NCBI RefSeq assembly: GCF_000332095.2
Contig: NZ_KI913949.1
Span: forward strand, 2,208,752 to 2,272,751
DNA: 64,000 nt
Source: Leptolyngbya sp. PCC 6406
GTDB taxonomy: Bacteria > Cyanobacteriota > Cyanobacteriia > Phormidesmidales > Phormidesmidaceae
Direction of reading: 5' to 3'
Part shown: positions 30,923-33,673 of the stretch, one piece after another
How positions within the stretch are numbered: position 1 is the stretch's first letter
Layout of the letters: every line of letters begins with the position of its first letter
Translations under genes and position numbers: made by a program
The notes under the pieces: model-generated
What the model was told of the DNA's origin: nothing
What the model saw: only the letters and a program-made list of their open reading frames with translations
The model's database searches: none

Positions 30923-31070
30923 AGTCCTTAAATCCCTCCCTTCCCAGTGGCCAACCGAAGCCATGGCGCAATGATAGGTCAGCTTTTGTCAGATGCGCCG
31001 CCTAATTATGACGGGCAGTAGTGGGGCTAGGGTGCCCTGGAGAGGGTGGTTTGCGTGCAGGGGTGTGGAA

Positions 31071-31181
31071 GTGATGGGGTGTATAGCCGCAGCCCTTTCT
31101 GGAATGCCGTTCGGCCATACACCCCATCACCCCCATCCGGGATACAGTAAAAATCACCGTATTTGTAATCACCGTATTTGT
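31071..31181. promoter_or_regulatory. Inverted and tandem repeats upstream of the Amt fusion gene
   Basis: A perfect 14-bp inverted repeat (GTGATGGGGTGTAT at 31071-31084, complement at 31117-31130, 32-nt spacing) is followed by two exact 15-bp tandem copies of AATCACCGTATTTGT (31152-31166, 31167-31181). They lie 36-146 bp before the Amt-phosphatase start and may be regulatory. I looked for an NtcA site (GTA-N8-TAC) and did not find one. Confidence 0.5.
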
Positions 31182-31216: not shown

Positions 31217-33673
31217 ATGGTTGCGCTGATCCTGAAATCGTCGGTTCTCCTGAAGTCCGCAGACCCGCTCTCGACCAATGTGACCGATACACTGTGGATT
31301 GTGGTCTGTGCTGGGCTTGTATTTTTGATGCAGCCCGGTTTTATGTGTCTAGAGTCGGGGCTCACCCGCTCTAAAAACAGCATTAACGTAGCCGTCAAAA
31401 ACCTGGCGGATTTTGGTCTCTCCCTACTCCTATTCTGGCTTTGGGGCTATGGGCTGATGTTTGGGCCAACGGTGGGGGGCTGGTTCGGCTGGGGCAACTT
31501 TGCCATTGATGGCGGTCATTACCCTGATCTGATTGCCTTCCTTGTCTTTCAAGCCATGTTTTGCAGCACCGCCACCACCATTCTGTCGGGGGCGGTGGCA
31601 GAGCGTCTGCGGTTTGGGGCCTATCTTGCGATCGCGGTTTGGGCCTCCGGGCTGATCTACCCCCTCTTTGGCAGTTGGGCCTGGAACGGCCTGGAACTAG
31701 GACAGGCTTCCGGCTGGCTGGGGAAGCTCGGATTCATCGACTTTGCCGGGGCCAGCGTTGTCCACAGCACCGGGGCTTGGATCAGTCTGGCCATCCTGCT
31801 ACACATTGGCCCCCGTTTAGGCCGATTCCCGGCCCAAGGTCCGCCCCAAAAAATCCAAGGATCGAACCTGCCCATGGCCATGTTGGGGGTAATGCTGCTG
31901 TGGTTTGGCTGGATTGGCTTTAACGGCGGCAGCACCCTAATCTTTACCAATCAAGTGGCAGGTATCATCCTCAATACCTTGATTGCCGGAGCCGCAGGCA
32001 TGATCACCGCAGGTCTCTTGAGCCTGCTGCGCTACCGCCACCTCGAAGTAGAACTGCTGTTAAACGGTTCCTTGGCAGGTCTAGTGGCCATCACCGCCAG
32101 TTGCCATGCCGTCACCACCCCTATGGCCTTTGTGATTGGGGCAGTGGGCAGTGGCATCATGATCCTGGTGATTCAGGCTCTGGAACACTGGCGCATCGAT
32201 GATGCGGTAGATGCCGTCGCGGTTCACGGCGGGGCGGGTCTCTGGGGCACGATGGCGGTGGGAATCTTTGGCCAGCTCGATGTACTGGGGACCAACCTCA
32301 GCCGAGGCCACCTCATTGCTATCCAGTTTATTGGGGTACTCACCTGCTTTTTCTGGGCCTTTGGCCTGACTTGGCTAGTGCTGAAGGGGATCGATCGCTG
32401 GCTACCGCTGCGAGTCTCCGCAGCGGAGGAGGAAATTGGCCTAAATGTGTCGGAGCACCGGGCCAAGACCGAACTCTATGACCTCTTGGAGGTGATGGAA
32501 TCCCAAACTAAAACCCAGGACCTCAGCCTGCGGGTACCCGCCAACCCCTTCACGGAGGTAGGTTACATTGCCACTCGCTACAACCAAGTCATCGCCACCC
32601 TAGAGCGCAAAACCCAAGAAACCCTAGCCTACCTGCAACAGGTCACCTTGGTCACAGCAGCGGCAACAGCGGTGGAAAATGACACCTTTCAACCCCTTCA
32701 GCTCAATCCCGTGGCCCAGCGCGCCGATGAACTGGGGCGACTGGCGCGGGTCTTTCAGCAGATGTTTGAACGGGTCAAAATTCGGGAGCGCAGCCTTCAG
32801 GAAGCCCGGAACCAACTGGCCCAGACCAATGCCCAACTGGAGGAGCGAGTGGTAGAACGCACTGCTGATCTAGCCCAGGCCAATGCCAAAATCCTTAGTT
32901 TGAACGAGCAACTCCAAGCAGAAAACCTGCGCATGGGGGCCGAGTTAGCGGTGACCCGCCGACTGCAAGAGATGATTCTGCCCACGGAGACGGAGCTGAA
33001 GGCAATTACAGGGGTAGACATCGCGGGTTTTATGGAACCGGCTGCCGAGGTGGGGGGCGACTACTATGACGTGCTGCAACAAGGCGATCGCATTCGCATA
33101 GGCATCGGCGATGTCACTGGCCACGGCCTAGAGAGCGGCATGGTGATGCTCATGGCCCAAACCGCCGTGCGGACCCTGATCGCTAATGGGGAAACGGACC
33201 CCGTCAAGTTGCTCACCGTAGTCAACCGCACGCTGTATGAGAACACACGGCGGATGCAGTCCCAAAAAAATATGACCATTACCCTGCTGGACTACGAAGC
33301 AGGTCTGTTACGCCTCAGTGGTCAGCATGAGGAATTGATCGTGGTGCGCCAAGCAGGAACGATTGAATCCATTGACACCATCGATCTCGGGTTTCCCCTG
33401 GGCCTAGAGCAGGACATTTCCCCTTTTCTAGCGGAAACCAATGTGCAGCTATATGCCGGTGATGTAGCCGTACTCTACACCGATGGCATCACCGAAGCCA
33501 TGAATGCTCAACGGCAGCAGTATGGCCTAGAGCAGTTCTACAAGGTTTTAATCCAATCCCGCGACAAAACCGCCCAGGAGATTCACCAAGCAGTGGTGGA
33601 GGATGTGCGCCGCCACATCGACGGGGAAGCCGTTGCCGATGATTTAACCCTGCTGATCCTGAAGCAACCCTGA
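31217..33673 (+). CDS. Ammonium transporter fused to SpoIIE/PP2C phosphatase
   Basis: An 818-residue fusion from ATG 31217. Residues about 15-400 form an Amt/Mep/Rh channel with eleven hydrophobic helices. Both pore histidines are present (ASVVHSTGAWIS and DAVAVHGGAGLWG), as is the FCSTATTILSGAVAER segment. Residues about 405-575 form a HAMP-like and coiled-coil linker (LRVPANPFTEVGYIATRYNQV; QTNAQLEERVVERTADLAQ). Residues about 590-815 form a SpoIIE/RsbU PP2C phosphatase with EVGGDYYDV, GDVTGHGLESG, YTDGITEAMN and ADDLTLLIL metal sites. Inference: a membrane ammonium sensor that dephosphorylates a target such as an anti-sigma-factor antagonist. No such target gene is adjacent. Confidence 0.95.
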   Translation: MVALILKSSVLLKSADPLSTNVTDTLWIVVCAGLVFLMQPGFMCLESGLTRSKNSINVAVKNLADFGLSLLLFWLWGYGLMFGPTVGGWFGWGNFAIDGGHYPDLIAFLVFQAMFCSTATTILSGAVAERLRFGAYLAIAVWASGLIYPLFGSWAWNGLELGQASGWLGKLGFIDFAGASVVHSTGAWISLAILLHIGPRLGRFPAQGPPQKIQGSNLPMAMLGVMLLWFGWIGFNGGSTLIFTNQVAGIILNTLIAGAAGMITAGLLSLLRYRHLEVELLLNGSLAGLVAITASCHAVTTPMAFVIGAVGSGIMILVIQALEHWRIDDAVDAVAVHGGAGLWGTMAVGIFGQLDVLGTNLSRGHLIAIQFIGVLTCFFWAFGLTWLVLKGIDRWLPLRVSAAEEEIGLNVSEHRAKTELYDLLEVMESQTKTQDLSLRVPANPFTEVGYIATRYNQVIATLERKTQETLAYLQQVTLVTAAATAVENDTFQPLQLNPVAQRADELGRLARVFQQMFERVKIRERSLQEARNQLAQTNAQLEERVVERTADLAQANAKILSLNEQLQAENLRMGAELAVTRRLQEMILPTETELKAITGVDIAGFMEPAAEVGGDYYDVLQQGDRIRIGIGDVTGHGLESGMVMLMAQTAVRTLIANGETDPVKLLTVVNRTLYENTRRMQSQKNMTITLLDYEAGLLRLSGQHEELIVVRQAGTIESIDTIDLGFPLGLEQDISPFLAETNVQLYAGDVAVLYTDGITEAMNAQRQQYGLEQFYKVLIQSRDKTAQEIHQAVVEDVRRHIDGEAVADDLTLLILKQP

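Follow-up and report, generated by a model that had tools for sequence, protein, structure and literature searches.

The stretch of DNA analysed here (the window; 64,000 nucleotides from Leptolyngbya sp. PCC 6406) carries a gene in which an ammonium transporter (Amt) family domain is fused to a SpoIIE/PP2C phosphatase. The reading frame runs from an ATG start at 31217 to a TGA stop at 33673, encoding 818 aa in one frame. The domain order given by Pfam together with AlphaFold2 (AF2) starts with the Amt and continues through two HAMP-like helix pairs and a coiled coil to the phosphatase. The features are as follows.

31217..33673, + strand: Amt-PP2C fusion gene, 818 aa, a single intact open reading frame (open reading frame list, Pfam, orthologues, purifying selection)
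31292..32467, + strand: Amt (ammonium transporter family) domain, predicted sensor, residues 26–417 (Pfam PF00909, 376.6 bits; Foldseek)
31331..31588, + strand: region with the predicted receptor-type ammonium site Q39, E46, N62, D65, T121 and S124 (alignment to Ks-Amt5)
32471..32611, + strand: first HAMP-like helix-connector-helix, residues 419–465, boundary approximate (AF2 helices 419–433 and 447–487; conserved columns)
32612..32785, + strand: second HAMP-like unit, residues 466–523 (weak Pfam HAMP match, orthologue HAMP match, AF2 helices)
32840..32977, + strand: coiled-coil linker helix before the phosphatase, residues 542–587 (AF2)
33017..33664, + strand: SpoIIE/PP2C phosphatase domain, residues 601–816 (Pfam SpoIIE 623–816, 131 bits; Foldseek SiaA-PP2C)
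33053..33127, + strand: phosphatase metal motifs GGDYYD (613–618) and GDVTGHG (631–637) (alignment with relatives)
33476..33643, + strand: phosphatase metal motifs YTDG (from 754) and DD (808–809, in ADD) (alignment with relatives)

Integrity and architecture of the fusion gene

A preliminary description of this DNA had proposed an ammonium channel fused to a PP2C phosphatase, and the fusion proved to be real, with both parts of the single 818-aa frame recognised by Pfam (Amt 377 bits, SpoIIE/PP2C 131 bits). The ATG start is supported by orthologues, which open with MLALI where the window protein opens with MVALI. The same architecture is encoded in one frame, at 72% identity, in LEGE 07170 (G215), which belongs to another cyanobacterial family, and a MAG of the same genus (G051) holds both halves at 77–78% identity, parted solely by contig ends. 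The full-length orthologue, together with the one split at a contig gap, excludes a frameshift artefact joining two genes, the possibility that the preliminary description had itself raised against the fusion. Orthologue comparison gave a dN/dS of ~0.1 in each of the Amt, linker and PP2C regions (dN 0.15–0.24 and dS 1.1–2.4 across the three, with dS close to saturation). A case for an assembly or frameshift artefact, or for gene decay, could be made from the presence of the exact subtype in only three cyanobacterial genomes and from a relative in Arthrospira sp. PCC 9108, an Amt-PAS-PP2C frame (L221:6001-8551) whose PAS region contains a frameshift; the single-frame orthologue, the low dN/dS and the integrity of every motif refute this reading.

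The full-length AF2 model, which drew on 31 homologous sequences, has a mean pLDDT of 87.5, with a pTM of 0.60 that makes the relative placement of the domains unreliable. The Amt bundle is seen in the model, and helix-connector-helix pairs are predicted at residues 419–433/447–487 and up to 505–523, followed by a long helix at 542–587 and the phosphatase fold from 601, in agreement with the HAMP-like and coiled-coil linker described earlier. The first HAMP-like unit is common to Amt fusions with other outputs, as judged from conserved columns. The second gave a Pfam HAMP (PF00672) match at residues 498–520 (E = 0.0025, 18.5 bits) and at residues 502–548 of the orthologue (E = 4e-4, 21.1 bits), both under the gathering score of 25, and the label is therefore kept at HAMP-like, though AF2 predicts a helix-connector-helix.

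The gene is flanked by a TPR gene upstream on the opposite strand and a glycosidase-like gene downstream; both were dropped as candidate partners, as both orthologues have different neighbours. No NtcA palindrome (GTAN8TAC) was found upstream of or near the gene, and the palindrome's occurrence count is at chance level. Two repeats also lie upstream of the gene, at window positions 31066-31135 and 31152-31181: an inverted one of 24 nt (88%) and a 15-nt one in perfect tandem, AATCACCGTATTTGT. They are possibly a terminator or an operator.

The Amt domain and its relatives

Pfam Ammonium_transp matches residues 26–417 (E = 1.6e-112), and the best Amt structures in Foldseek are the Sd-Amt1 receptor (8qj4/8qj3, TMt 0.95) and Ks-Amt5 (6eu6, 0.93). 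The pore residues F115, W156, H183, F235, S239 and H337 are intact in the alignment (the Phe gate, the S1 Trp/Ser and the twin His), in line with the earlier observation on the pore histidines (H183 and H337). In Ks-Amt5, the best-studied Amt receptor, two ammonium ions are bound within the membrane via Q24, E31, N47, D50, T51, T109 and T112 (PMC5764959). These positions align with Q39, E46, N62, D65, F66, T121 and S124 of the window protein, with the four main residues and T121 identical, S124 conservative and F66 replacing T51. The Q-E-N-D combination is present in 57/57 long fusion-type Amts examined by alignment, as well as in Ks-Amt5 and 8qj3, while the plain Amts from the same order (21/21) carry N-E-N-V, the Q and D positions being replaced. 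A scan of the genome collection added 70 further fusion-type relatives with the region readable, including spirochaetes, planctomycetes and proteobacteria, all with Q-E-N-D, a sample biased towards the receptor type because the scan was seeded with the window protein. Q39 and D65 provide a testable sequence mark: in all the Amts examined they told ammonium receptors apart from transporters.

Judged by these alignments, the Amt domain is of the sensor type, with a predicted site bearing the receptor-Amt ammonium-binding signature, so that 'channel' is probably a misnomer; the Amt fold and intact pore of the original reading stand, while its channel label probably falls to the receptor-type Q39, E46, N62 and D65. 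Among the pore-blocking residues of Ks-Amt5 (F27, Y30 and F34), the first is kept as F42, and L45 and L49 replace Y30 and F34; with leucine at two of the three and the pore intact, loss of transport is not implied and transport may persist. A single branch separates the sensor Amts from the rest of the Amt tree (SH-aLRT 88, below the starred level), on which the SpoIIE label requires 4 changes by parsimony, with only 1 forced by well-supported branches.

The window genome encodes three other Amts, two of them plain and one fused to PAS and kinase parts (L002). The Amt-PP2C fusion is not confined to this genome; it recurs in nine further cyanobacterial genomes and in four MAGs of Leptospiraceae. 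The Leptospiraceae fusions (L230, L238, L242 and L243) carry a different PP2C subfamily (E ~1e-12) and have no adjoining slr1658/slr1659 genes (described below), which points to an apparently separate origin. An Amt-PAS-GGDEF fusion from a cyanobacterium of the same family (L107:5220-7451) has an Amt that branches with Sd-Amt1, outside the other cyanobacterial fusions. There is, in addition, a receptor-type Amt-HAMP clade without catalytic output (support 99), in which an upstream potassium-channel gene (Ion_trans_2 + TrkA_N + TrkA_C, filter FGVGYGE) adjoins in 15/18 loci, with two of the three loci that lack it lying at contig ends.

L023, L024, L026, L052-L058, L062, L063, L072-L074 (also L091-L095): Amt-HAMP/potassium-channel loci

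Such a pair may form a K+ or NH4+ channel module gated by ammonium. The window genome encodes a 49% identical relative of the channel (L284; G000:C1:3415793-3416827), near none of its four Amt genes.

The pairing of these output-less relatives with an RCK potassium channel fits an ionic or electrical theme and, as Amt transport is electrogenic and the pore here intact, the Amt-HAMP part could sense transport flux, membrane potential or pH instead of ammonium, with the same slr1658/slr1659 switch as output. The residues of the Ks-Amt5 ammonium-receptor site are, however, kept in every fusion examined, and we consider this alternative decidedly unlikely.

The phosphatase and its candidate partners

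The Pfam SpoIIE match (PF07228) spans residues 623–816 (E = 5.6e-38, 131 bits against a cut-off of 25), and GGDYYD, GDVTGHG, YTDG and ADD are all intact on alignment, which upholds the earlier claim of complete metal sites and finds none of the loss of essential residues that it had named as a refutation. With an AF2 model of the isolated PP2C (pLDDT 92), Foldseek placed SiaA-PP2C first (6k4e_B, E = 1.6e-16, TMq 0.74) and PphA lower in the list. Identity to SiaA itself is ~21%, and the NCBIfam SiaA equivalog score of 64.4 bits is below the cut-off of 700; no other SiaA-like PP2C was found in this genome. The window protein is 28–29% identical to three of the genome's other SpoIIE-type PP2Cs (four other matches were found, the fourth being a partial 22-bit match that was left out of the alignment).

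In most loci of PP2C relatives with 46–68% identity, whose N-terminal parts are dCache, receiver or other regions, the phosphatase gene is followed downstream by a ~200-aa and then a ~115-aa gene, assigned by NCBIfam to the slr1658 and slr1659 superfamilies, respectively. The first, a SiaB-like kinase, has a weak SiaB match below the NCBIfam SiaB cut-off and a conserved NEL[LI]EN motif, which we read as a GHKL-type N-box. The second, a SiaC-like STAS protein, has weak STAS/SiaC matches below the Pfam SiaC cut-off, and its LNSSG aligns with the SiaC phosphopeptide YLNTSSI (T68). None of the NCBIfam SiaA, SiaB and SiaC cut-offs was reached, and PDB sequence searches with slr1658 and slr1659 returned nothing convincing. 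Amt-PP2C fusions themselves head a [PP2C]-[slr1658]-[slr1659] operon in four genomes (G085, G230, G080 and G345). The slr1658/slr1659 operons of the PP2C relatives often have a GGDEF or MscS-like gene as a neighbour; the MscS-like mechanosensitive channel genes adjoin several of them (L131:4558-6189 by Pfam; L136, L139 and L147 by resemblance).

Modelling and these gene neighbourhoods suggest that the phosphatase output resembles SiaA, not RsbU, and belongs to the slr1658/slr1659-linked group. In the earlier term 'SpoIIE/RsbU phosphatase' the family assignment holds, whereas the RsbU likeness gives way to SiaA and the slr1658/slr1659-linked cyanobacterial PP2Cs. With these as the nearest phosphatases, a SiaB/SiaC-like pair and second-messenger enzymes are the likely partners.

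Of slr1658 and slr1659 genes scoring above cut-offs, the window genome contains exactly one each. The two are neighbours at C1:1778387-1779361; a GGDEF gene immediately precedes them, and no PP2C gene adjoins. The Amt-PP2C gene lies ~460 kb from this pair, with no operon within the window, so the matching of phosphatase and pair here rests on counting and on relatives. The nearest operonic PP2C in the tree (68% identity) is in a PP2C-GGDEF-slr1658-slr1659 cluster (L198). The slr1658 and slr1659 of this cluster branch together with their window-genome counterparts (support 100/99 and 97/95, respectively). The match between trees is imperfect: this group also takes in the kinases and substrates from G023 and G038, while the G023 PP2C is placed elsewhere. 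An slr1658 gene is present in 9/9 adequately complete genomes with a verified Amt-PP2C compared with 137/390 in the class sample, the nine spanning eight genera and the counts not being phylogenetically independent; none was seen in G051, which is 61% complete.

The preliminary description had expected ammonium to feed a partner-switching pathway and suggested a genome search for STAS antagonists and anti-sigma kinases. In a classical pathway of the RsbU type the phosphatase would act on an RsbV-like single-STAS protein, free the anti-sigma kinase's partner and change transcription under ammonium. STAS proteins are common substrates of SpoIIE-family PP2Cs, and the search did find four small RsbV-like STAS proteins with a D-S-[SA]-G-L phosphosite and four RsbW-like HATPase_c_2 proteins. 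They are not favoured as partners: the PP2C is closer to the operonic slr1658/slr1659 phosphatases (50–68%) than to the genome's other SpoIIE PP2Cs (28–29%), two of which already have a gene neighbour of their own, STAS in one case (L008/L013) and a kinase in the other (L009/L077). No sigma-factor or RsbV/RsbW genes were found beside the Amt-PP2C gene in the window or in L089, L101, L102, L103, L189, L190 and L195. We consider the RsbU-type switch unlikely; the link to partner switching survives through the operon evidence, with SiaB/SiaC-like partners likelier than anti-sigma and sigma factors.

A different substrate, PII, is conceivable if the protein is mainly a transporter, with the attached phosphatase dephosphorylating PII (Ser49-P) at the membrane in place of PphA. 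The intact pore would suit this, and the PP2C PphA controls cyanobacterial PII, which interacts with Amt (general background; PMC6603209). SiaA is, however, the closest PP2C structure, with PphA further down; the receptor signature of the window Amt is absent from the genome's plain Amts; and the operon partners are slr1658/slr1659. We therefore regard dephosphorylation of PII as very improbable.

Proposed signalling route and known systems

With moderate confidence we favour an ammonium receptor with a SiaA-like phosphatase, in which ammonium tunes the dephosphorylation of an slr1659-type protein that acts on a GGDEF enzyme and a PAS-cyclase. Computation provides the intact fusion, the receptor-type site, the SiaA-like fold, the operon linkage in relatives and the single pair in the genome; from these we infer ammonium control of the phosphatase and its sign, the substrate in this organism and the effectors. 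External ammonium would enter the Amt vestibule and be held at the intramembrane site Q39, E46, N62 and D65, as in Ks-Amt5, and the resulting change would pass via the two HAMP-like helix pairs and the coiled coil to the PP2C, altering its activity. The phosphatase would strip phosphate from a Ser in the LNSSG of the slr1659-type STAS protein, which the slr1658-type kinase would re-phosphorylate.

The candidate effectors share a stalk repeat. The GGDEF protein beside the pair in the window genome has two such repeats, DLELALLTTAEHGDIIE and DLEIIVQTIMEHGDILD, and a second protein of this genome with stalk repeats is a PAS-PAS-nucleotide cyclase (stalk 51% identical). The same kind of repeat occurs in other enzymes beside slr1659, namely PAS-cyclases in G215 and G080 and a kinase in G168. 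Paired motifs of the form DLE...T..EHGD were observed on GGDEF enzymes, nucleotide cyclases and a histidine kinase near slr1658/slr1659 (L187:6850-7749, L200:10-1836, L188:4148-6154, L193:5149-6438 and L198). The repeat is a candidate docking site for the slr1659 STAS protein. Unphosphorylated slr1659 would bind the paired motifs of the neighbouring GGDEF enzyme and probably also the stalk of the PAS-PAS-nucleotide cyclase, and ammonium would thereby set c-di-GMP and possibly cAMP.

Tentatively, and with less confidence than in this route, we extend it to a general scheme in which ammonium, through a transporter-derived receptor, sets one slr1659-type STAS hub, the hub uses the shared stalk docking motif to activate different enzymes (a diguanylate cyclase and a nucleotide cyclase) and so serves more than one second messenger, and a trimeric receptor drives dimeric phosphatase units. 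The last element is a problem for the model, since Amt proteins are trimers (PMC5764959) and PP2C and HAMP units act as dimers, linker-driven dimerisation being the activation step in RsbU (PMC12143880). The receptor module, with outputs that include kinases, cyclases, GGDEF enzymes and phosphatases, is a natural set in which to study how a trimeric transporter fold drives dimeric enzymes. If true, the proposed route would lead directly from outside ammonium to second-messenger signalling in cyanobacteria, beside the internal PII/NtcA route, and it proposes a function for slr1658 and slr1659, families that NCBIfam describes merely as regulators.

Amt receptors that sense ammonium and signal through a kinase (Ks-Amt5) are known, as is the SiaABCD switch; their combination appears to be undescribed. 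A literature search found no paper on an Amt-PP2C/SpoIIE protein, most subscription journals lying outside its coverage, so that an earlier description is possible. Among solved Amt structures, Sd-Amt1 of Shewanella denitrificans (8qj3/8qj4/8qpf) comes closest (TMt 0.95, 44% identity) and shares Q/E/N/D; its PDB titles name a receptor with ON and OFF states, and the search found no paper on it. Ks-Amt5 of Candidatus Kuenenia stuttgartiensis, an Amt-histidine kinase (6eu6; PMC5764959), like the window protein, combines an Amt receptor domain and the intramembrane Q/E/N/D site with a C-terminal signalling output. That output is a kinase and not a PP2C phosphatase, however, and Ks-Amt5 lacks the two HAMP-like units and the coiled coil; T51 is F in the window protein, and two pore-blocking residues differ. 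RsbU, RsbP and SpoIIE share the PP2C-SpoIIE domain, which RsbU and RsbP reach via a helical linker that controls dimerisation (PMC12143880), whereas the window subfamily has no attached RsbV, RsbW or sigma genes. SiaA of Pseudomonas aeruginosa SiaABCD (6k4e; PMC7647112, PMC8457831) differs in its sensor, which in the window protein is a whole Amt, and in sequence (PP2C identity ~21%), and the presumed partners slr1658/slr1659 are under the SiaB/SiaC cut-offs and unlinked from the window gene. SiaA nevertheless has the closest solved PP2C fold and the same plan of membrane sensor, HAMP and PP2C, its SiaB/SiaC pair resembles slr1658/slr1659, and the effector of SiaABCD is a stalked diguanylate cyclase.
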